Shown here: piece by piece, positions 3,396-17,321 of the stretch
Position numbering within the stretch: position 1 is the first letter of the stretch
How the letters are laid out: each line of letters begins with the position of its first letter
Virus record (IMG/VR): IMGVR_UViG_3300023184_000086
Location: 1-64,000 of that record
Direction: 5' to 3' (one strand)
Source: a virus
DNA: 64,000 bases
Position numbers and translations under genes: made by a program
The notes under the pieces: model-generated
The model's database searches: none
What the model was told of the DNA's origin: nothing
What the model saw: only the letters and a program-made list of their open reading frames with translations

Positions 3396-5228
3396 TTATC
3401 TCCTGTATTGTAGGTCTATCATATCTTGATGTAACCTGTCGCTGCTTAATGATCGTAACGCACGAGCGTTATCGATTGTCTTTTGATTTCCGTATATATC
3501 TTTAGGTGGATAAAATATACCATCCTTCATTATTGTTGTTGCATATACATCAAACCCTTTTGGCTGTGCGGCTATTGCTGCAATATCTACACCACCTGCT
3601 AACTCATTTGGTTCTACATTCTTTTTAACTGTTTCAGTTTTTTGTTCAGTTTGATTTGTTTCTATATTAACTTTTGTTTCTACTATTTCAGTAACTGATG
3701 CACTACGTGATATTGAACTAGTAACAGGCATTACAGGCACATCAGGCTCGAGTGATTTAGTTTCTATTTTTGTTGTTTGTACAGGTGCAGTTTCTGCAAC
3801 AGGTTGTATAGATAATATCGAACTCAATTGTTGATTATTGTATGTAGGTCCCAATTGATTTCTATTTGCAGAATTAGCCGCCGTTAAAAAAGACGAATTT
3901 GAATTAGCGGGTGCTTGATAACTAATTTGATTGGTTTGCTGTGCGGTATTAACAGTGGTTGAATTCATTGATTGAGTTGAAGCAGTCATTAAACTTTGTA
4001 ATGATGTTGTTGTAGGACCTTGCAATTGAACTGCTGAAGTACTAGTTGGCTGTGCAGGTGGGGCAGACATCTGTGCAGTAGATGCAGTTTGAACCTGTGA
4101 TGCTTGACTGCTGGCCATGCTCATAGCATTTAGATTATCCACTGTGGCCATTGCTTGTTCTTGTGCCTTGGCACTACTTGTAGCAGCAACTTGATTGGCA
4201 TTTTGTACAGCCGCTGCCTGTGTGGCTTTATCTGCCGCTTGTATTTGTCCAATTAGATTCATAATCAAACTCATGTTAGGAGCAGACTTATTTGACTGCT
4301 GTTGAGATTGCACAGCACTTGATGCTGGCGGTTGTTGAATCTGTGTTGGTTGAGATTGCTGTGTTATTGCCTGTACATCCTTTAACACTTGTGGAACATT
4401 ATCAGGGGCAGTAATAACTCCAGTTGTTGATAACTGAACACCTCCTACATTTATTATAGGGGTACCAGATGATCCAGCATCATTAGTTGTTAAACCTGCT
4501 AGAGATATTCCAGACGGAACAACCACATTGGTTGATTTAATTAAATTGTTAAACCCAGGACATGTTGGGCTAGACGCCGGATTGGCTACACATGGATCTA
4601 CTCTATAGTTTAAACTAAAACTTACATTCATAATTTCTGGACCATAGTTACCAGCCCAAAAATTATTATCTTTACCTACAAACCCAAACTGTGCTGCGCC
4701 TAATTTATTAATATTATAAGGTTTGTCAAATGTTTCAGTAAAATTAAAATCACTCCAATTATATTTCCTATTGGTGTATTGTGTATAATCGTAATTTTCA
4801 ACAACCTTGCCAGCACTATTGTATATATTAACATATGCTGCAAGGTAGTCTTGTCTGCCGTCATCCCAGCCGTTACCATTCTTAGCACGGAAGCCAAAAT
4901 TAAACCCGCTTAGTTGAACTCCTGTACCTGCTGCTGCAAGAGCATTGTTTATATTAACCACTTGATTGAGATTTACATTACCATAAGAGAAATTAATACT
5001 TCCCGATTCCGCACGTATGCTAGGATTTGGGCCGCAGTTACCTGGCTCACCAGCATGAAAACATAACTGATTAACCAAGACACCATTGACCCAATTGCCC
5101 GTCGTGGCAGTAGGACTACCGGTAAAATTTACTAGGTTACCAGTAGTTGAATCTACTTGAGCATTAGAATAGTTTGAACACAAGAGCACCAAGCAAAGCG
5201 CCAATGCCCACTTTCTGATAAGTGTCAT
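3396..5228 (-). CDS. Secreted Gln/Ser/Thr-rich protein of unknown function
   Basis: The 610-residue protein has a signal peptide (residues 1-23, ...CSNYSNA) and a folded N-terminal region to about 215 with beta-rich sequence (GSINFSYGNVNLNQV, FGFRAKNGNGWDDGRQDYLAAY, several Cys). A long Gln/Ala/Ser/Thr-rich segment follows (residues about 285-500), then a C-terminal block ending KTIDNARALRSLSSDRLHQD. Cysteines in pairs (CFHAGEPGNC, CVANPASSPTC) suggest disulfides in the periplasm. The start overlaps the end of the preceding gene by 65 bases in another frame; I keep ATG at 5228 because it gives an intact signal peptide. No enzyme motif is seen. An envelope or decoy function is possible. Confidence 0.75.
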   Translation of the reverse strand: MTLIRKWALALCLVLLCSNYSNAQVDSTTGNLVNFTGSPTATTGNWVNGVLVNQLCFHAGEPGNCGPNPSIRAESGSINFSYGNVNLNQVVNINNALAAAGTGVQLSGFNFGFRAKNGNGWDDGRQDYLAAYVNIYNSAGKVVENYDYTQYTNRKYNWSDFNFTETFDKPYNINKLGAAQFGFVGKDNNFWAGNYGPEIMNVSFSLNYRVDPCVANPASSPTCPGFNNLIKSTNVVVPSGISLAGLTTNDAGSSGTPIINVGGVQLSTTGVITAPDNVPQVLKDVQAITQQSQPTQIQQPPASSAVQSQQQSNKSAPNMSLIMNLIGQIQAADKATQAAAVQNANQVAATSSAKAQEQAMATVDNLNAMSMASSQASQVQTASTAQMSAPPAQPTSTSAVQLQGPTTTSLQSLMTASTQSMNSTTVNTAQQTNQISYQAPANSNSSFLTAANSANRNQLGPTYNNQQLSSILSIQPVAETAPVQTTKIETKSLEPDVPVMPVTSSISRSASVTEIVETKVNIETNQTEQKTETVKKNVEPNELAGGVDIAAIAAQPKGFDVYATTIMKDGIFYPPKDIYGNQKTIDNARALRSLSSDRLHQDMIDLQYRR

Positions 5229-6420
5229 CTATTTTTACCTCATCCATTTTAGGAATTTGATCTTTATTTTCATTCCACGCCGCACGGGCTGCTTCACCAA
5301 TTTTGCCATCATATGGGCAAGGTGTTCCTGCTGCCAACATAGCATCAAACACTCTACGGTCTTGGCACATGGTAGCAACTGCTGCTACTTTCATACCCAT
5401 ATCATATAATGTTTTGCTTAGTTTTAGTCGTTCGCAATTCATGTCACGTACAGTACCACCGCTACTAACACCAAATATCTGTGTTTGTACGCTGCCACTT
5501 GTACCGGTACTACATAGGTCAGCATTGCCGCCACTCATCATTGTTGGAGCAACTGCGGTTGGTGGTGGTTGAATAATACGCTGTGTAATCTCAGTGGTAT
5601 TGATGTTACGATTAGTCATATCACCTGTATTGACATTGTTGTTTTGATTAACATTGTTGTTTTTGTTTTCACTGGTACTTGTGTTAGTATTGGTATTTTT
5701 GTTGTCGCTAGTGGATGTATTATTGTTATTGTTGGTCATTGTACCAGTATTAACATTGTTGTTATTGTTGGTCATCGTGCCGCTATTAACATTATTGTTT
5801 GTATTAACATTAGTAGAAGTACTAGTATTGGCATTAACATTGTTGTTGTTATTAGTCATTGTACCGCTGTTTATGTTATTATTGGTATTGACATTAGTAG
5901 CAGTGCTAGTATTGGAATTTTGATTAATGTTGGTCATTGTACCACTATTAATGTTATTGTTTGTATTAACATTGGTATTAGCACTAGTGTTTTGATTAAT
6001 GTTGGTCATTGTACCACTATTAATGTTATTGTTTGTATTAACATTAGTGCTGCTACTAGTATTCTGATTGATGTTGGTCATTGAGCCTGTATTAACATTA
6101 TTATTGTTATAGGTCATTGTGCCGGTATTAACATTGTTGTTATTATTGGTCATTGTGCCAGTATTAACATTGTTGTTATTATTGGTCATTGTGCCAGTAT
6201 TAACATTGTTGTTATTATTGGTATTGACACTTGTACTGCCAACAGTAGTTTGATTAATATTGGTTATTGTACCACTATTAACATTGTTGGTATTGACTGT
6301 GCTAGTGCTAGTAGATGTGTTGTTAGTATCTACTAGTGTTTTGCTATCATATGTAGTTTGCGCCCAAACCATACACATAAAAAACATGGCCGCTAGCCAT
6401 GATAGAACTTTCTTGAACAT
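5164..6420 (-). CDS. Secreted Asn-rich repeat protein with C-terminal hydrophobic end
   Basis: The 418-residue protein has a signal peptide (1-20, ending VWA), then about 250 residues made almost only of Asn, Thr, Ser, Val, Gly and Met in irregular copies of a VNTGTMTNNNN-type unit. A compact C-terminal region from about 300 to 418 contains cysteines (DLCSTG, NCERLKL, CQDRRVFDAMLAAGTPCPYDG) and ends with the hydrophobic GIGALLGALVFKLF. This is a plausible exported, membrane-tethered protein with a flexible linker. The C-terminal domain resembles small periplasmic domains in other aquatic phages, but I cannot name it. The 65-base overlap with the next gene suggests coupling. Confidence 0.75.
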   Translation of the reverse strand: MFKKVLSWLAAMFFMCMVWAQTTYDSKTLVDTNNTSTSTSTVNTNNVNSGTITNINQTTVGSTSVNTNNNNNVNTGTMTNNNNNVNTGTMTNNNNNVNTGTMTYNNNNVNTGSMTNINQNTSSSTNVNTNNNINSGTMTNINQNTSANTNVNTNNNINSGTMTNINQNSNTSTATNVNTNNNINSGTMTNNNNNVNANTSTSTNVNTNNNVNSGTMTNNNNNVNTGTMTNNNNNTSTSDNKNTNTNTSTSENKNNNVNQNNNVNTGDMTNRNINTTEITQRIIQPPPTAVAPTMMSGGNADLCSTGTSGSVQTQIFGVSSGGTVRDMNCERLKLSKTLYDMGMKVAAVATMCQDRRVFDAMLAAGTPCPYDGKIGEAARAAWNENKDQIPKMDEVKIDDTYQKVGIGALLGALVFKLF

Positions 6421-7172: not shown

Positions 7173-7307
7173 TTAAATATCCATTTCTTCGTAATCTGCT
7201 TTACCTACACCGCATTCCGGGCAAGCAAAATCATCATGTAACTCTTCCCATTTTCCTTCAGTTTCTTCATTGTGTACATGGCCACATACTACGCAAACGT
7301 GTTTCAT
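7173..7307 (-). CDS. Rubredoxin
   Basis: The 44-residue protein is MKHVCVVCGHVHNEE followed by a spacer and FACPECGVGKADYEE. The two CxxCG motifs (residues 5-9 and 29-33) are the iron-binding ligands of rubredoxin, at the length of a rubredoxin domain without extensions. Its ATG overlaps the stop of the rubrerythrin gene by one base (TAATG), so the two are translationally coupled. It likely passes electrons to the adjacent diiron protein. In classical rubrerythrins this domain is fused to the C-terminus; here it is a separate gene. Confidence 0.92.
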   Translation of the reverse strand: MKHVCVVCGHVHNEETEGKWEELHDDFACPECGVGKADYEEMDI

Positions 7308-7756
7308 TATAGTTTCTCCAATACTGCTTGATATGCTTGAGCGTGACGTTTTTCAACACTCTTCAAAGCCGCAAAACGCTTTTCTGCTTTGGCAAGAACT
7401 TGTGCAAATTGTTTTGCATGTTCTTTACTTTCGGCAATTTGTTCTTTTGCTTCTTCTTCTGCTCTCCAATTTTTTTCAACTGTAGCATCTGCTAGCATAT
7501 TTGGATACATTGTGGTAAATTCAAATGTTTCACCTTCAATGGCTTTTTCCAAACATTCCTTAGTTGATGGTTTGCCAATAAGCAATTCCAAATGACCCCA
7601 CGCATGTAATAGTTCTTGATCTGCGGTATGTTCGAAATGTTTTGCAATATCTTCATGCCCTTCTTCTCGAGCAATCTTTGCAAAGTAGCGATATTTAATA
7701 TGTGCTTGGCTTTCTCCTGCCAATGCACTTTCCAAGTTTCTAACGGTAATTGACAT
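7307..7756 (-). CDS. Rubrerythrin (diiron, ferritin-like)
   Basis: The 149-residue protein is a four-helix ferritin-like domain. Visible ligands include E15 (LAGESQAH), E48 and H51 (ADQELLHAW), and later EGETFEFTTMYPNML and AESKEHAKQF. Rubrerythrins reduce hydrogen peroxide using electrons from a rubredoxin centre. The usual C-terminal rubredoxin domain is missing and is supplied by the next gene, with a one-base overlap. The ribosome site AAGGAG lies ahead of ATG at 7756. The pair probably protects the infected cell against peroxide. The 100-base upstream region is AT-rich, without a clear consensus promoter. Confidence 0.9.
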   Translation of the reverse strand: MSITVRNLESALAGESQAHIKYRYFAKIAREEGHEDIAKHFEHTADQELLHAWGHLELLIGKPSTKECLEKAIEGETFEFTTMYPNMLADATVEKNWRAEEEAKEQIAESKEHAKQFAQVLAKAEKRFAALKSVEKRHAQAYQAVLEKL

Positions 7757-7865
7757 CTTTTCTCCTTGTGTGTGATTGTCTTACAATGTTAATTGTACAT
7801 TTATTTACTATAGTAATCAACTATAAAATGATATTTTTCAATTGTAAATTCCTATTACAATAATA

Positions 7866-7892
7866 GGCAAGAGAAACCCGCCGAAGCGGGTT
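7866..7892 (-). terminator. Rho-independent terminator after the tmRNA
   Basis: The stem AACCCGC/GCGGGTT with a TTCG tetraloop on the minus strand is followed by TTTCTCTT. It ends the transcription unit that starts at the promoter at 8953-8981 and contains the two small peptides, the SGNH hydrolase and the tmRNA. Confidence 0.85.
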
Positions 7893-7935
7893 CTGGTTGT
7901 TTCTTTTATACAGTAAGTCCTACTGCACCTTAGCC

Positions 7936-7968
7936 TTAAGCGGCCATGGAATATAAACTATCGTTTGC
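7936..7968 (-). other. tmRNA proteolysis-tag reading frame (ANDSLYSMAA)
   Basis: Ten sense codons starting GCA AAC GAT and ending ATG GCC GCT TAA give ANDSLYSMAA. The AND start and the small hydrophobic AA end are standard for tmRNA tags recognised by ClpXP/ClpAP and SspB. The penultimate Met and SLYS core differ from the ANDENYALAA-type tag of E. coli. Confidence 0.88.
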
Positions 7969-8055
7969 CTTTAGTTTGATTTGCTTGATTTACGGTCATC
8001 GCCTACCGAGTTGCCGTCGCTGACTATTTGCCCAATCGATTACCAGAGCAGGCCC

Positions 8056-8140
8056 ATTATAAAACATACTACAAGGTATCCAGACTTCCAACCCCGGGTA
8101 ATCAACGTTTTACCGGTCGCCGATTTAGTAATATGCTTTA
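8056..8140 (-). other. tmRNA intervening segment between acceptor and coding pieces
   Basis: These 85 bases lie between the encoded CCA of the acceptor piece and the 5' end of the coding piece. In permuted tmRNAs the corresponding segment is removed by tRNA-processing nucleases, giving two RNA pieces. No reading frame of note lies within it. Confidence 0.75.
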
Positions 8141-8222
8141 TGGTGGACCTGGCCGGATTCGAACCGGCGTCTTGAACACATCCTCTTTGAAGGGATTACA
8201 ACTATTAACTTACAGTATATAT

Positions 8223-8654
8223 TTATTTTGTAGCGTCTGCAAGTTCTTTATATCCAGCCCAACTTGGATGAATATTATCTGTTTGCACACGGGTAATTGG
8301 TAATACTATATCACCATTTTCACCAGCAACTACTTTAACAAAACTTTGTATCCAATCTATTTCTAAACTACTAGATGGATTGTTACCGTGCGGAAGTATC
8401 CAAAATACACGATCGGCTTTAACAGCCTTGCGTATCTGTTGTAGTTCTAAAATAGTTCTTACACCTGTGTGATCGTTAGAACCCAAACTGATGATTACAG
8501 TCTTGGCAACAGGCAAGGCACCTTGATCACTTTCGAGATATTTCTTACGCCATTGTTGGCTATTGATACCGCCACGAGCATAGGCCACACATTCTGGTCT
8601 ATATTTGGCTGTACCTACGGCTATGCTATCACCTAGAATTAAACAGTCCAACAT
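8223..8654 (-). CDS. SGNH/GDSL-family hydrolase
   Basis: The 143-residue protein shows the SGNH blocks in order: GDS at residues 8-10 (nucleophile Ser10), Gly28-29 in ARGGIN, GSND at 58-61, and DNIHPSWAGY near 129-138 with the catalytic Asp and His. This is a complete single-domain esterase or acetylhydrolase core. It lacks a signal peptide, so it acts in the cytoplasm or on virion or cell glycans after lysis. The stop codon lies three bases before the tmRNA, within one transcription unit. Related small SGNH proteins occur in T4-like phages; the substrate is unknown, with deacetylation of sugars a reasonable guess. Confidence 0.85.
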   Translation of the reverse strand: MLDCLILGDSIAVGTAKYRPECVAYARGGINSQQWRKKYLESDQGALPVAKTVIISLGSNDHTGVRTILELQQIRKAVKADRVFWILPHGNNPSSSLEIDWIQSFVKVVAGENGDIVLPITRVQTDNIHPSWAGYKELADATK

Positions 8655-10263: not shown

Positions 10264-10725
10264 TTATTCCTTTTCTTCTTTTGGTAATTCGCATAAAGCC
10301 TCTAAGGTCTTATAGTGATTGTATGCTTTCTTCAACGCTTCAAAGTGTTCTAATTTTTCTGGGTCTGGTACTAGTATGGCCAAACGCTTGGATATTGTTT
10401 CCATAAACTCGCCGAGATCGTGACCGTTTACTTTAACCTTGCCTTCAAACTCTGCATCACCCTTAACATTCAGTGATGATTGACTGTTACTGTTATTGAT
10501 AGTTGCCCAACTTGGCAGGCCGCTACCGTTGGTGGTAAAAACAGTACCGTTCATATTAGTAGTTGGAATTGTTCCGCCACTGCTGCCCGCAGCACCCACA
10601 TTGTATTGCGGGTATGGACCTATCATACTAGAAGTTAGATAGGGTATATTAGTTGTGTCTAATGTAATAGTATCAGCACCTATACTGGATATAGTTATGA
10701 TATCTTCGGGGATAGGAGAACTCAT
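10264..10725 (-). CDS. Putative virion-associated protein
   Basis: In this 153-residue protein the N-terminal half is Ser/Thr/Gly-rich (SMIGPYPQYNVGAAGSSGG, NGSGLPSWATINN) and the C-terminal half is a beta segment followed by helix: LNVKGDAEFEGKVKVNGHDL, then LGEFMETISKRLAIL and EHFEALKKAYNHYKTLEALC. The mix of fibre-like repeat and helical end is typical of minor structural proteins in T4-like phages. It overlaps the glutaredoxin gene by four bases (ATGA type). No enzyme motif. Confidence 0.6.
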   Translation of the reverse strand: MSSPIPEDIITISSIGADTITLDTTNIPYLTSSMIGPYPQYNVGAAGSSGGTIPTTNMNGTVFTTNGSGLPSWATINNSNSQSSLNVKGDAEFEGKVKVNGHDLGEFMETISKRLAILVPDPEKLEHFEALKKAYNHYKTLEALCELPKEEKE

Positions 10726-10943
10726 TTTAGATATTCCCTAAGTTCAGTAAATCCACCAACATGAGCCTCTTCAATAAAAATTTGAGGAAGAGTTCGTGCA
10801 TTAGGTACTGCTTCTAATAGTTCTTCTTTTGTATAACCATCACCAATCTTACGTTCTTCAATTTGATAACCTTTAGACTTTAGTAATGCGTGTGCTTGAT
10901 CACAGTAAGGGCAGTGATACTTACTCCATAATATTGCTTTCAT
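10722..10943 (-). CDS. Glutaredoxin
   Basis: The 73-residue protein starts MKAILWSKYHCPYCDQAHAL and has the CPYC redox centre, a cis-proline block (RTLPQIFIEEAHVGGFTEL) and the glutathione-side GG. I start it at ATG 10943, after AAAGGA, and not at an upstream in-frame start that would add 18 residues unlike the family. It is the likely electron donor for the ribonucleotide reductase encoded just upstream, as with T4 NrdC. It overlaps the next gene by four bases. Confidence 0.9.
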   Translation of the reverse strand: MKAILWSKYHCPYCDQAHALLKSKGYQIEERKIGDGYTKEELLEAVPNARTLPQIFIEEAHVGGFTELREYLK

Positions 10944-10945
10944 TT

Positions 10946-11575
10946 TTATCCTTTTATATATGATGCTTTGTAATAGGTTGATGCAACCATTGACCAACCT
11001 GCGTTTAAAAGATGTGATCTAATGACATTGTGATCATAATAATCTACAACATCGTCGTAAACAAATATTGCTCCTTTAGGTGCCCTTGGTTCAAAAAATA
11101 ATGTTTCATTAAGTGTGGTCTCTAAACTATGAGGCCCATCAAAATGTACTAATGAGTATTCATTAATTATCTGCTTACCCTTATCAAAATAAACAGGAAC
11201 ACCATCTGCAAATCTTTTAAAAAATTCTGTATCTTCCATTGGATACAGATAAAAATTAATGTTAGGATTTTCTATACAATATTGCGACATAGAAATCATA
11301 ATTCTATCACGCATATTATTTGTGTAATCTGTTTCTGCTGGAATAATATTCTCTTTCCAGAAATATGGAATCTCACCATAGGGGTCTATAGCAATATGTG
11401 TACGCGGCGCTATTTTTGTTTGAAGTGCATCTAATATACGTTTTGTTCCACCTCCGGCACGTAATCCTATTTCACAAGTAATACCAGGAACATCTCTAAC
11501 CATCATAGCAGCATCATACAATATGTAATAATCGCCACAACCGTCTTCAAATTCTCCTGCTTTGAAATCACTCAT
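10946..11575 (-). CDS. Class I SAM-dependent methyltransferase-like protein
   Basis: The 209-residue protein has a Rossmann-type entry (ITCEIGLRAGGGTKRILDAL), an acidic strand end (HIAIDPYGEIPYF), an active-site style HFDGPHSLETTLNETLFFEP and IFVYDDVVDYYDH. This is the pattern of the Methyltransf_24 group, which often modify sugars or small molecules. The G-rich loop EIGLRAGGG stands in for the usual E/DxGxGxG. It lies between the coiled-coil peptide after nrdB and glutaredoxin in one operon. The substrate is unknown. Confidence 0.7.
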   Translation of the reverse strand: MSDFKAGEFEDGCGDYYILYDAAMMVRDVPGITCEIGLRAGGGTKRILDALQTKIAPRTHIAIDPYGEIPYFWKENIIPAETDYTNNMRDRIMISMSQYCIENPNINFYLYPMEDTEFFKRFADGVPVYFDKGKQIINEYSLVHFDGPHSLETTLNETLFFEPRAPKGAIFVYDDVVDYYDHNVIRSHLLNAGWSMVASTYYKASYIKG

Positions 11576-11577
11576 TC

Positions 11578-11742
11578 TTATCCTCGTCTATTAATTGCTG
11601 AGGCTATCTGATTAACCTCGCTGCGTCTGCGACTGTTTTCTCTTTCTAATAAACCAATACGTTGATTTAATTCTTGATTTTGTTTAATCAATTGTTCAAC
11701 ATGTTGTTCAAGTTTTTTAATTTTATCAGTTTCGGTAGACAT
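11578..11742 (-). CDS. Small coiled-coil protein (54 aa)
   Basis: The frame MSTETDKIKKLEQHVEQLIK runs on through QNQELNQRIGLLEREN with clear heptads and a basic tail (SRRRSEV). The ATG shares one base with the nrdB stop (TAATG), showing coupling, and the stop lies three bases before the methyltransferase start. It is probably a dimeric adaptor; no function is known. Confidence 0.7.
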   Translation of the reverse strand: MSTETDKIKKLEQHVEQLIKQNQELNQRIGLLERENSRRRSEVNQIASAINRRG

Positions 11743-12845
11743 TATAGATCCGGTAGTTCGTCATAACTAACATTATCACTCATTACACCGATTACATAAT
11801 TAGTGCTTTCGGTTTCTTGTAATGCACTTTGTTTCTTGCCAATATTGACATGTTTATTAAACCATGGAATAGGACTTGAACGTGGATGCTCTTCAGCATA
11901 TTTGATACCAATGTCTTTTAGTCTAACGAATGCTGTATAATCCACAAAGTCTTTAAGGATAGCAGCATTGAGGCCAATCACTGGACCTTTCTTGAACAAG
12001 TAATCTGCCCAGGCCTTTTCTTCCGCTATGACCTCCATATACATAGCATACACTTCTTCCTTGCATTCTTCTACCACTTCGGCAAACCGTTCATCATCTT
12101 TTACCACATTATTAATTAACCAAGCAGTCCATTCTGCATGTAATAACTCATCCTGCAAAATTAAACTAATAATATTGCCGTTGCCAATATAGATTTTATT
12201 TTCAACCATGGCTAAACTTGTAGCAAATGAAACCATAAAGCGGAATGCCTCTAATGCATAACTAGCATTTAATGCTAGCCAAATTGCTTTAATATGACTT
12301 TTTTCGTTTACTGTTTTTGGATTGAGTTCTTTAAAACAATTTAGTTCATGCAGTTTGTCATAGTAGCGTCCAATGCTGGCAGACATGTCTACAATTTCTT
12401 TAGTGTCGTGAATCTTGTTAAATTCTTCTTTGGGCACACTATATACATTACGTATGATGTGACTATAACTCTTGCTATGTATATTAGTTTCAAAGAAACT
12501 CCAATTGCTTACCAAGGCTTCAAGTTCTGGTATGCTGATAACTGGACTAAAGATTTGACTTGGAGCACGACCTTGTATACTGTCCAATGCTGTTTGACGT
12601 AATAGATTGCTGGTGAAAATATGTTTGACAGCATCACTGGCATCCTTGTGATCCATCTTGTCTTTGGTCAAACTGATTTCTTCTGGTACCCAAAAGAATC
12701 CACGGGCTAATTCTTCAAACTTAGCGATCTTAGGATATTTGACTTCTTCAAAACGCTGGACGGTTACTGGACCCTCTATGTCCAAAAACATCTTGCGTTT
12801 GAGATAGTTTGTTTGTTTTGATAAATCGTATTGTTCTTTACTCAT
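11742..12845 (-). CDS. nrdB: Ribonucleoside-diphosphate reductase, beta subunit (class Ia)
   Basis: The 367-residue protein holds the diiron and radical site. Ligands are visible in LDSIQGRAP (Asp), FFETNIHSKSYSHI (Glu and His, with the radical Tyr four residues after the His), ALEAFRF (Glu) and LQDELLHAEW (Glu and His). NrdB generates the tyrosyl radical used by NrdA to reduce ribonucleotides for phage DNA synthesis. I start at ATG 12845, which overlaps the nrdA stop as ATGA; a GTG nine bases upstream is less likely. The length is near that of T4 NrdB (388 aa). Confidence 0.95.
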   Translation of the reverse strand: MSKEQYDLSKQTNYLKRKMFLDIEGPVTVQRFEEVKYPKIAKFEELARGFFWVPEEISLTKDKMDHKDASDAVKHIFTSNLLRQTALDSIQGRAPSQIFSPVISIPELEALVSNWSFFETNIHSKSYSHIIRNVYSVPKEEFNKIHDTKEIVDMSASIGRYYDKLHELNCFKELNPKTVNEKSHIKAIWLALNASYALEAFRFMVSFATSLAMVENKIYIGNGNIISLILQDELLHAEWTAWLINNVVKDDERFAEVVEECKEEVYAMYMEVIAEEKAWADYLFKKGPVIGLNAAILKDFVDYTAFVRLKDIGIKYAEEHPRSSPIPWFNKHVNIGKKQSALQETESTNYVIGVMSDNVSYDELPDL

Positions 12846-15166
12846 AATTTGCACGCCTCGCAGTCATCTTCATCACTATATATTGTAATAGGTTCTACAG
12901 CCAATAGTCGTTCGCTTTGGGTGTTTAATATATTCTTACTACCTACTTTATCTATTAGGCTATAATACATAGTCTTTAATCCCCACTTGTATGCCAACAT
13001 TAAATTTTTGGCAATCAATGTGCCCGGAACTTTTCCGTCTCTAAAATGTCGAGGACTGTAGAATGTATTTGTACTTAGACTTTGATCGATGTACGCTGCT
13101 AATACTGCTGATGTTTTTAAGTAGTCAACACAATCAGATTGTTCCCACATTAGTTGATATCGATTCTTTAAACGTTTATATTCAGGAACAACTTGTGTAA
13201 ATGAACCTGCTTTGCTTTCTTTAACACTAATTAGTTCCATGGGCATTTCAATACCATTGGTACTGTTTAATACAACACTACTAGATTCAACGGGAGCAAC
13301 TGCCATAAGTGTAGCATTACGTATGCCATATTTCTTCATACGTTCACGCAATGGTTCCCAATCTATACTAGGTGTAAAGTCAGTTAATTCATTAACACCT
13401 GCTGCTCTACGTTCCCAAGGAAATATTCCCTTACCGTAGTAAGTGTGTTCGCTACGCTTACATGGGCCACGCTCTTGGGCCAGTTCCACACTTGCTTCGG
13501 TAAGGTAATATGCTTGATGTTCCATCCAGCGTTTGACTTCTGCCAATGCATCTGCTTCGCCATATTTAAAACTCTTACGTGCATGCCAGTATGCTAAGTT
13601 TGTAATGCCAACACCTAGCGGCTCAAAATCTTCGTTGGCTAATTTACTTTGTATGCTCAGGAAGTCTTGATATTGTAACAAGTTACTTAGACTGCGAACC
13701 AATACACGACACGCTTTACGCATTTCTTGTGGGTTACGGAAAGCACCCCAATTTACGGACCCAAGAGTACAAAGAGCAATGCGTCCCTCTGGATCTTCAA
13801 TTCTCTGGAAAGGTTTCGTGGGTAAAAGTATTTCTTGGCATAAATTTGATTGATATATTGGGTCAAGCCTAGTGTCAAACGGCCCCTGGTTGATAACGTT
13901 GTCGATATTGACAAGATAGATGCGCCCAGTATCAGTACGTTCTTTAAGGATACCATTTTTGAATATCTCATCTGCCGATATGCGTTTCTTTTTAATTGTC
14001 GGATGCTTCTCATAGTTTACATACAATGTTTCAAATTCTTTACTGTCTCTGTAATAAGATTCATATAAATCAGGCACTTCTGCAGGATCAAACAATGTGA
14101 TCATTTCGCCACGTTTATAACGATTCCAAAACATGGCGTTGACCACTACGCTGTAATCCATTTGACGCACACGGGTTTCGTCAGTACCTTGATTGTTTTT
14201 TAATACAATAAGATCTTCAAACTGATAATGCCACACAGGAAATGTTACAGTACAACTAGCATTACGAATACCACCCTGACTACAACTACGGAGGTCGGCA
14301 AACCATTTCTTCAAGAACGGAATCATACCAGTGTGTTTAATTTCACCATTACGTATTGGGGCACCTAATGGACGAATACGTCCGATCTCTAATCCTATAC
14401 CAGCACGTTTACTGGCATATTTGGCCATCATTTCACCACTTGCAAAGATACTGTCCAAAGTATCATCGCTACTGATAAGCACACAACTACTGAACTGCTT
14501 AGTAGTAGTACCGAGACCAGCAAGCACAGGTGTAGCCAACGTAAAATGACCCGCGCTAGCACATTCGTAATATTCTTTGACATATTTTAATCTTGCCTCC
14601 TTAGATTCATTATGGAATGCTGTGGCAGAAGCAACAGCATAGCGTACCTGAGGAGTTTCAAATATCTGTCCAGTGGCACGATTCTGTACTAGATACTTTT
14701 CACATAACTGTGCTATAGCAGCATAGGTATATGTTTCATCTTTATCGTGATCAATAAAGAGATCTATAATATTCCATTCATCTTCTGTATACCACTCTAG
14801 TAGTTCAGGAGTATACATACCTAACTCTACATTTTTCTGTATAATGCTATATAATTTAGGAGGTTCATATTGTCCATATACTTCTTTACGTAGCATACTA
14901 ACACGTTGTCTACCTGCTACATATTGATAGTTGACATTATTAATTTCTGGATTTTCACTTTCATCAACTAAATCTACCATTGCTTTGAGCAATAGTTCAT
15001 CAATTGTTTCAGTAGTCATACCATCATGTAGTTCAATTTGCGCTTTGATTTCGATCATACTAGGACTAACTCCGTCTATACCCTTACAAGAGTATGCTAC
15101 CTGTCTTTGTATTTTTTCAATATCAATGGGGACGCGATTCCCATTACGCTTTACTACTGTAATCAT
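12842..15166 (-). CDS. nrdA: Ribonucleoside-diphosphate reductase, alpha subunit (class Ia)
   Basis: The 774-residue protein begins with an ATP-cone (VVKRNGNRVPIDIEKIQRQV, residues 1-90) and has all catalytic parts: the redox Cys in FSSCVLISSDD, the radical Cys in SNLCQEILLP, its redox partner in RIALCTLGSVNWG, the Tyr pair of the radical path in LKTMYYSLI, and the C-terminal CEAC at the end for re-reduction by glutaredoxin. The length matches T4 NrdA and E. coli NrdA (about 750-760). It is coupled to nrdB, with the glutaredoxin gene three genes downstream. The start at ATG 15166 follows an AAAAGG ribosome site. Confidence 0.96.
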   Translation of the reverse strand: MITVVKRNGNRVPIDIEKIQRQVAYSCKGIDGVSPSMIEIKAQIELHDGMTTETIDELLLKAMVDLVDESENPEINNVNYQYVAGRQRVSMLRKEVYGQYEPPKLYSIIQKNVELGMYTPELLEWYTEDEWNIIDLFIDHDKDETYTYAAIAQLCEKYLVQNRATGQIFETPQVRYAVASATAFHNESKEARLKYVKEYYECASAGHFTLATPVLAGLGTTTKQFSSCVLISSDDTLDSIFASGEMMAKYASKRAGIGLEIGRIRPLGAPIRNGEIKHTGMIPFLKKWFADLRSCSQGGIRNASCTVTFPVWHYQFEDLIVLKNNQGTDETRVRQMDYSVVVNAMFWNRYKRGEMITLFDPAEVPDLYESYYRDSKEFETLYVNYEKHPTIKKKRISADEIFKNGILKERTDTGRIYLVNIDNVINQGPFDTRLDPIYQSNLCQEILLPTKPFQRIEDPEGRIALCTLGSVNWGAFRNPQEMRKACRVLVRSLSNLLQYQDFLSIQSKLANEDFEPLGVGITNLAYWHARKSFKYGEADALAEVKRWMEHQAYYLTEASVELAQERGPCKRSEHTYYGKGIFPWERRAAGVNELTDFTPSIDWEPLRERMKKYGIRNATLMAVAPVESSSVVLNSTNGIEMPMELISVKESKAGSFTQVVPEYKRLKNRYQLMWEQSDCVDYLKTSAVLAAYIDQSLSTNTFYSPRHFRDGKVPGTLIAKNLMLAYKWGLKTMYYSLIDKVGSKNILNTQSERLLAVEPITIYSDEDDCEACKL

Positions 15167-15635: not shown

Positions 15636-17321
15636 TTAAAGCATTATTATTGGGTGTATATTCATACTAGCGCCATTAGTATATCCTGCTGGTGGTGTGT
15701 AAGTGCATTGTATATCAAAACGGCCTTTTCCATAATCTACATACATACTCCAAATTACAAGTCCAGGGTCTACATTAAATGAATAATCATCAACTATATT
15801 ACCAGTTTGTAATGTTATTCTTAGAGTTCCCATTCTGTCAACAGATGCCGTTGGTATCTTAGTGACCGGATCATACGATGCGGCAAAAATATTATATTTT
15901 ATAATTATCTGTTGTGCATCAAATGATGTTGGTAATCTTAGTATTCTGTTGAGGGCATTGTCATTAAGTGATGCTCTAAGAACTGGAAGTTCTAATATTG
16001 TTGGTCCCTGAACTAACGGTTGGTAATAAAAATCTTCAGCTATTCCGTTATTACGTTTATAAAATCTATCAAAGTAATCATTAACAGTACGATTTCCGGT
16101 TGTTTTATAATTTATAACCGGAGCGGTAGCAACCAATTCACTTTGTCCTAAATTACCTACATTATAAAATTTATTATTTGAACTAACATGGTTTGTATCA
16201 CTAGTTCCATCACCTGCATAAATTGCTTCTAACTCTATATTCTTAAATAGATTATTATCAATTGTTGCATATTTTGGTCCAGTATCTGCTTGGGAATTTT
16301 TTGGGTTATTGAATATAATTCCGTAAAGTGAATTATAAAATCTGCTATTTTGAATAGTGGTATAATACACATCATAATTTGATTGGATACTATTTCTAAG
16401 TCCAGTAAATTCGCATTCATCAATTAATATATTACTAGCAGATACTGTGTCACCGCCGTAACATCTTATATCAATCCCCACGTATGTTGATGTAGTTTGT
16501 CCACCCTGAGCACGATTTCCTAAAAATTTAACATTTCTAATTACAGAATTATCAGCACAATCTAAACTCATAAGAGACAGTGAAGTGGAGGTATTTGTTA
16601 GACTGCTATCATACCGAATTGTTAGTCCTTCAATATAAATGTCAGTTGGTTGACTTCCGCCGGAATTTATTCCACCAAACGCTAGATTATCAAATGTTGT
16701 TCTACCTGGTTCGTTTACGTTGTCCGGGTCTGCATCAATTGTTTGAAAAACATGACTAACATTAGATATTAGATTTATAATAGTTTTATCAGGACCTTCG
16801 CCTACAATTGTGGTATGTTTAGGGATAAAAATAGTAGTATCTATGTTGTATACTCCGGCAGGTAAATGTAATACCTTGGCAGAATTTTTCCCGTAATCGC
16901 TAGTTGTTTTTAAAGGATCTAAAAATAAATTATCAATGGCAACCTGCATAAGAGCAGATACTACTTCGTCACCACCCACACCGCTAACACCAAAGTCTGT
17001 GATACTAACTATATCATCGTTCTTTTTGTTTATAGGTCTTTCAAAAGGTACGCCGCCAAATGAGGGTGCTGTAATAGCAGGAGATGTGTCTCCTCTATAG
17101 GTATATCCTAAATCGGCTGTTGTTACTACATTGAATAGATCATTCTCTGTTAATATTCTAACATTGGCATCTCTTGCCCCGCCGTCATCTCTACGTAGAC
17201 CTATATATAGATGTTCAGTGTCAGCCGCCCAACCAAATTCGCCACCTGCTAATGTTGGTACGCCTGTTTGATTTTCTTGCCCACGACGGACCTGAATTCT
17301 TGAAATTTCTACTACAGCCAT
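15636..17321 (-). CDS. Tailspike-like protein with beta-helix (pectate-lyase fold)
   Basis: The 561-residue protein begins with a virion-attachment segment (ISRIQVRRGQENQTG, LAGGEFGWAADTEHLYIG), a widespread N-terminal motif of phage fibres. It continues with VSITDFGVSGVGGDEVVSAL and LPAGVYNIDTTIFIPKHT, the start of a right-handed beta-helix of the pectate-lyase type, with many short strand repeats (VIRNVKFLGN, ILIDECEFTG, TIQNSRFYNS). A C-terminal beta domain completes it. Such proteins bind or cut host surface polysaccharides. A GATAAATA late-promoter variant lies 21 bases upstream. Confidence 0.82.
   Translation of the reverse strand: MAVVEISRIQVRRGQENQTGVPTLAGGEFGWAADTEHLYIGLRRDDGGARDANVRILTENDLFNVVTTADLGYTYRGDTSPAITAPSFGGVPFERPINKKNDDIVSITDFGVSGVGGDEVVSALMQVAIDNLFLDPLKTTSDYGKNSAKVLHLPAGVYNIDTTIFIPKHTTIVGEGPDKTIINLISNVSHVFQTIDADPDNVNEPGRTTFDNLAFGGINSGGSQPTDIYIEGLTIRYDSSLTNTSTSLSLMSLDCADNSVIRNVKFLGNRAQGGQTTSTYVGIDIRCYGGDTVSASNILIDECEFTGLRNSIQSNYDVYYTTIQNSRFYNSLYGIIFNNPKNSQADTGPKYATIDNNLFKNIELEAIYAGDGTSDTNHVSSNNKFYNVGNLGQSELVATAPVINYKTTGNRTVNDYFDRFYKRNNGIAEDFYYQPLVQGPTILELPVLRASLNDNALNRILRLPTSFDAQQIIIKYNIFAASYDPVTKIPTASVDRMGTLRITLQTGNIVDDYSFNVDPGLVIWSMYVDYGKGRFDIQCTYTPPAGYTNGASMNIHPIIML

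Follow-up and report, generated by a model that had tools for sequence, protein, structure and literature searches.

Of the phage genes rbr and rd, the first encodes a rubrerythrin of a phage-specific lineage in which the diiron site is remodelled, and the second, strictly coupled to it, a true rubredoxin. This is not the main point of the sequence-only reading, in which the pair was a neat fission of classical rubrerythrin or the capture of a split form. The genes lie in the 64,000-nucleotide stretch of DNA analysed here (the window), the source of which is a 77-kb virus record. We consider it probable that they form a phage-specific two-gene redox cassette, that is, a two-component peroxide (or O2) reductase that draws its electrons from the rubredoxin and whose diiron site is remodelled. 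Computation establishes the genes and their coupling, the fold, the linkage, the ligand map, and purifying selection.

Organization of the gene pair

Both open reading frames (ORFs) are on the minus strand (Table 1), and the two translationally coupled genes and their overlap are present, as was originally read from the letters. The A at position 7307 is common to the rbr stop TAA and the rd start ATG, and the order, diiron part followed by rubredoxin, is indeed that of classical rubrerythrin. The rbr protein matches PF02915 (Rubrerythrin) over residues 7-145 with 52.1 bits (cut-off 22.8) and scores 65.6 bits against the NCBIfam rubrerythrin equivalog NF045767, below the cut-off of 200. It lacks the fused C-terminal rubredoxin-like domain (RUBY_RBDX), with the chain ending at residue 149 in helix D. 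The rd protein contains two CxxC motifs and matches PF00301 (Rubredoxin) with 32.1 bits (cut-off 23). PHROGs contains no family for either protein. Strong purifying selection is evident from the median dN of 0.18 versus a median dS of 1.63.

Table 1. Features of the rbr-rd locus, with positions in the window
Feature	Position	Strand	Basis
rbr, 149-aa rubrerythrin-type diiron protein, single domain	7307..7756	-	PF02915 match
rd, 44-aa rubredoxin, Cys ligands C5, C8, C29, C32	7173..7307	-	PF00301 match
TAATG, rbr stop and rd start sharing one base	7305..7309	-	sequence reading
GGAG, Shine-Dalgarno-like, inside the rbr 3' end, 8 nt before the rd start	7316..7319	-	sequence reading
AAGGAG, Shine-Dalgarno-like, 5 nt before the rbr start	7762..7767	-	sequence reading
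sigma70-like promoter match TTTACA-17-TATAGT between tmRNA and rbr, 10/12	7820..7848	-	weak: match count near shuffled mean
Ser110 codon, place of the second bridging Glu	7427..7429	-	profile and structural alignment
His113 codon, helix-D metal ligand (His129 of sulerythrin)	7418..7420	-	profile and structural alignment, conservation
Helix-D extension past the bundle, residues 129-149	7310..7372	-	models, ends of structural matches, conservation
Permuted two-piece betaproteobacterial-type tmRNA, outside the cassette	7870-8255	-	Rfam RF01850 beta_tmRNA 127 bits, RF04321 118 bits

Distribution and linkage among viral contigs

When IMG/VR was scanned with the 149-aa protein, rbr relatives were identified on at least 350 viral contigs, the best 80 of which are full length and 75-82% identical; with a looser pattern, the number of viral contigs carrying a relative rose to at least 594. 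Several of the rbr-bearing contigs exceed 340 kb, some being about 350 kb, so some of the carriers are very large phages. We refer to this family as freshwater, a label chosen by contrast with a marine family described below and not from sample metadata.

Among the best 80 loci found with rbr, rd starts no more than 8 nt from the rbr stop in 79, and in the 80th the contig end falls inside the rubredoxin gene. A chance pair of ORFs is thereby ruled out, given that the rbr product is full length throughout. The junction is a 1-nt overlap in 66 of the 79 loci, -4 in six, and 0 in four. A reverse search from rd, again covering 80 loci, found rbr directly upstream in 78, and the tail of rbr is visible in a truncated 79th. 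Because the linkage was found from the rbr side as well as from the rd side, the pair is a strictly linked cassette and no local accident. The sole exception among the 80 rd loci (L369, 1501-1626) is a rubredoxin of the same family that follows a different phage ORF, without rbr; here, rd may be used or kept alone, with another role.

Predicted fold and relationship to known rubrerythrins

The first AF2 model of the rbr protein was uneven over five runs (89.6 to 64.4), and a second, obtained with a broader alignment, was consistent (pLDDT 95.3, pTM 0.76; runs 95.3 to 87.9). The predicted structure is a four-helix bundle with an extended helix D, and both models contain a helix spanning residues 97-148. 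The model matches the Burkholderia pseudomallei rubrerythrin 8fxd with a Z score of 14.6 and an rmsd of 1.4 over 126 residues, versus at most 9.8 for unrelated structures, and TM scores are 0.63-0.71 for the group of sulerythrin, B. pseudomallei and Pyrococcus furiosus proteins, compared with 0.39 for Desulfovibrio vulgaris rubrerythrin. A search of BFVD gave no match at E <= 0.001.

The one-domain rubrerythrins of the aerobic type (sulerythrin 1j30, B. pseudomallei 4di0/8fxd, ferriperoxin) have the same bundle arrangement (Z 14.2-14.6), like phage rbr carry no fused rubredoxin, and share six of the seven metal ligands with it. The phage protein differs from them in having Ser110 at the second bridging glutamate, a helix D about 20 residues longer that includes E135/H138, and no 9-11-residue insertion in the 60s loop. 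As for gene context, the aerobic-type cellular genes are co-localized with DUF3501 and an Fe-S oxidoreductase (PMC5114695), and phage rbr is paired with a rubredoxin gene. The P. furiosus rubrerythrin (1nnq) aligns with the phage protein by profile without gaps over 125 residues. In the classical and classical-B fused proteins, to which it belongs together with D. vulgaris rubrerythrin (1ryt) and the 164-aa cellular proteins L083-L103, the diiron part is likewise followed by a rubredoxin-type partner; in the phages, unlike in these, the partner is a separate PF00301 rubredoxin and not a fused RUBY_RBDX domain, and Ser110 and the extension are further differences.

The diiron site

Structural alignment to sulerythrin 1j30 places residues 1-127 of the model on residues 6-143 of the chain, the 11 chain residues left unpaired agreeing with the insertion that the profile alignment shows in the loop after helix B, and yields the ligand correspondence (phage = sulerythrin) E15 = E20, E48 = E53, H51 = H56, E76 = E92, E79 = E95, S110 = E126, and H113 = H129. 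Six of these, E15, E48, H51, E76, E79, and H113, are invariant in 149 unique near-full-length phage sequences, as are the active-site tyrosines Y22 and Y84. The canonical site comprises seven ligands, with two ExxH motifs and two bridging glutamates, which in sulerythrin are Glu53 and Glu126 (PMC12851003); the phage site departs from it in that the second bridging glutamate is replaced by Ser110. Both the profile and the structural alignment match Ser110 with Glu126 of sulerythrin and with Glu124 of the B. pseudomallei rubrerythrin, a residue mutated together with Glu53 in the solved variant E53A E124A (9onr), and the profile alignment to solved structures is gapless through helices C and D.

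Serine occupies position 110 in all 149 phage sequences, and in 42 unique genes it is encoded by all six serine codons, of both the AGY and TCN classes, at the median dS of 1.63. In our tree, the 31 sequences outside the freshwater family, which come from gut records, marine phages, plasmids, and cellular genomes, all have glutamate there. From the invariance, the six codons at this divergence, and the glutamate in all others, it follows that serine became fixed here long ago and is maintained by selection. A missing iron ligand had been named beforehand as a refutation of the sequence-only reading. Such a loss does occur, at Ser110, but as the serine is invariant and selected, the site is a changed one, not a dead one.

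The neighboring residue offers a way to keep the chemistry conventional. Glu109, conserved in 148 of the 149 sequences and replaced by Asp in one, adjoins Ser110, and since helix positions i and i+4 face a similar side, it might swing in as the bridging carboxylate, with ExxxH substituting for ExxH, so that rbr would be an ordinary rubrerythrin peroxidase with a canonical site. We regard this as somewhat unlikely: it is Ser110, not Glu109, that falls on the ligand position without a gap in both alignments, the invariance of a serine spelled by six codons would be needless if Glu109 did the work, and the 31 other sequences all retain glutamate at position 110 itself.

We also considered, and rejected, E135/H138 as the canonical ligands in place of S110/H113; the turn between helices C and D at residues 94-96, in both models, and the gapless alignments put H113 at the site.

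The helix-D extension

Structural matches of rbr end at residues 125-129, and helix D runs about 20 residues further. In or near this extension, F128, L131, E135, H138, and Y142 are invariant, and R137 is conserved in 148 of 149 sequences. Conservation along the extension has a period of 102 degrees, near that of a heptad, a signal matched by 43 of 2000 shuffles; this pattern fits a packing surface. Because the extension sits where fused proteins have the linker to the rubredoxin domain, the simplest guess is that it docks the separate rubredoxin or makes a dimer contact.

The second invariant ExxH-type motif, E135/H138, together with the ligand lost in the main site, could also be taken to mean that rbr does not catalyse redox reactions but binds metal or has a structural role, for example as an iron store or a scaffold, with E135/H138 binding another metal between subunits. 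This seems very unlikely, given the strict linkage of rbr to the gene of an electron-transfer protein and the invariance of the six other diiron ligands and of Y22 and Y84.

An apparent internal duplication of 25 residues within helix D (SxxHAxxF versus ExxHAxxY) was not significant: the offset of 25 was not the best, and 46 of 1000 shuffles reached the top score.

The rubredoxin and the origin of the pair

Residues C5, C8, C29, and C32 are invariant in the rd alignment, and all 49 rd relatives match PF00301. The spacing of the cysteine pairs is 20 in 51 sequences and 17 in eight. By profile, rd is nearest to Pseudomonas aeruginosa rubredoxin 2, an electron donor in alkane hydroxylation, and to short rubredoxins. 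In several loci (L040, 2353-2478; L041, L044, L046, L081), CPECD replaces CPECG after the second CxxC, and the four cysteines are retained.

The gene order of the pair, which is that of fused rubrerythrins, and the fact that the nearest cellular matches in our pattern scan are fused proteins of about 164 aa would suit an origin by fission of a classical rubrerythrin, or by the recent capture from a host of a form that was already split. The domain types already contradict this: the C-terminal domain of the fused cellular relatives is RUBY_RBDX in 18 of 18 cases and PF00301 in none, whereas rd is a true PF00301 rubredoxin, and its cysteine spacings of 20 and 17 fall outside the two classes described for fused rubrerythrins, 10-14 and 27-32 (PMC5114695). 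Nor does a host source emerge. A scan of 84,980 cellular species recovered 21 loci, none of them more than 49% identical to phage rbr, by exact 8-residue patterns that could miss homologues below about 60% identity; the highly similar, identically split host copy that would mark a simple transfer was thus absent from the scan. Maximum-likelihood analysis of the shared core sets the freshwater phages apart on a deep, separate branch of the tree, the fused cellular, classical, and aerobic-type groups being united by a branch with ultrafast bootstrap 97. We accordingly abandon both fission and capture, which together appear highly improbable. Judged by sequence comparison, phage rbr is a distinct and so far phage-only lineage.

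A second set of phage rubrerythrins, from the Pelagibacter phage Mosig (a pelagiphage) and related contigs (at least 177 viral contigs; L082, L174-L253), constitutes the marine family. These proteins are phage-borne like rbr but keep glutamate at position 110, and in the tree they group with the aerobic-type proteins of Burkholderia; a rubredoxin within 2 kb was found in none of 80 loci. As the marine family groups elsewhere and comes without rubredoxin, rubrerythrins appear to have been acquired by phages at least twice.

Comparison with engineered sulerythrin

The sulerythrin variant E126A lacks the carboxylate at the same bridging position as phage rbr. It retains both irons, which come to be bridged by a water or hydroxide and lie closer together (Fe-Fe distance 3.27 A instead of 3.89 A), and reactivity with O2 rises from 3.1 M-1 s-1 to 11.4 M-1 s-1 (PMC12851003). 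E126A is a laboratory alanine mutant, whereas the phage residue is a serine, invariant in nature; by this analogy, phage rbr is a natural counterpart of E126A, with serine for alanine. The loss of the bridging carboxylate could lower metal affinity or move the chemistry away from peroxide.

By the same analogy, opening of a coordination site through the lost bridge might make rbr an oxygen-activating diiron protein, serving as an oxygenase or O2 reductase rather than primarily as a peroxidase. The profile proximity of rd to the alkane-hydroxylation donor rubredoxin 2 points in this direction. So do the observations that every bridging-ligand variant of sulerythrin is faster with O2 than the wild type and that E126A forms a cis-mu-1,2-(hydro)peroxo state (PMC12851003). 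E126A is, on the other side, the least O2-reactive of these variants, no substrate gene is nearby, and the scaffold and all other ligands of rbr are those of peroxidases, so that we consider oxygen activation as the main function unlikely.

Genomic neighborhood

The immediate neighbors of rbr-rd in the window are the tmRNA, a GDSL-like ORF, and small ORFs. The rbr gene is 113 nt downstream of the tmRNA on the same strand; ARAGORN made no call for this tmRNA. Permuted two-piece tmRNAs are known in aquatic phages (PMC9004378). The adjacency to the tmRNA, earlier described as another stress-related element, is real, but a functional connection is not indicated: among 17 relative loci examined, a tmRNA is located upstream within 4 kb in five, in a region rich in tRNA genes. 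At one locus (L008, 1072-1536), a GOLLD RNA is found near the cassette in a tRNA-bearing region (Rfam, 202 bits).

Farther away in the window, all on the minus strand, are a 295-aa ORF (1782-2669) with a signal-like N-terminus and a match to PF13609 (Gram-negative porin, 77 bits), which is a phage-encoded outer-membrane porin; a 418-aa ORF (5164-6420) that looks secreted and contains a long repeat rich in Asn and Thr (NTNNNVNTGTMTN...); genes for a class Ia ribonucleotide reductase (10722-15166) with a glutaredoxin-like ORF (10722-10997) nearby; and a 561-aa ORF (15636-17321), possibly encoding a receptor-binding protein, which has a pectate-lyase-like domain and weakly matches the N-terminus of the major tropism determinant.

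Proposed mechanism

In the rubredoxin-fed cassette that we favor, the rbr product would be a dimeric, domain-swapped rubrerythrin-type diiron protein; sulerythrin is such a domain-swapped dimer (PMC12851003). A host NAD(P)H:rubredoxin or flavin reductase presumably reduces the rd product, which would pass electrons to the rbr protein. The diferrous site would then reduce hydrogen peroxide, possibly also O2, and be re-reduced by the rubredoxin after turnover. Within the site, Ser110 would stand in for the bridging glutamate, with water or hydroxide probably bridging the irons, possibly with Glu109 nearby, and the helix-D extension with its E135/H138 stripe may provide a dimer or rubredoxin docking surface in lieu of the fused domain. 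The likely outcome would be protection of the infected cell and of the phage's own iron enzymes, for instance the class Ia ribonucleotide reductase encoded nearby.

A division of labor of this kind has a precedent in ferriperoxin, a rubrerythrin that lacks a rubredoxin domain and functions as a peroxidase, receiving its electrons from a separate donor (PMC3317640). Neither FAD_binding_6 nor Pyr_redox_2, the families searched for as a rubredoxin reductase, had a match over the cut-off in the related phage records searched, so the electron source would be the host's. The peroxide-reducing pair initially proposed survives as a plausible, electron-fed one.

A more detailed version is that freshwater phages have evolved, and still maintain, their own rubrerythrin lineage with one carboxylate bridge and a serine/hydroxide position, a natural counterpart of E126A adapted to different O2/peroxide chemistry, a dedicated rubredoxin, and a helix-D docking or second metal site. 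We advance it tentatively, as a combination that is possible but short of probable.

Implications

How diiron proteins react is believed to be governed by their bridging carboxylates, which until now have been altered through mutagenesis. With a large family in nature that has serine for one of the bridges, this question of reactivity becomes testable by evolution. We found no description of a phage rubrerythrin-rubredoxin pair in the open-access literature. The pair adds a redox cassette, widespread and strictly linked, to the freshwater phages and prompts one to ask why a phage should come equipped to deal with peroxide or oxygen itself.
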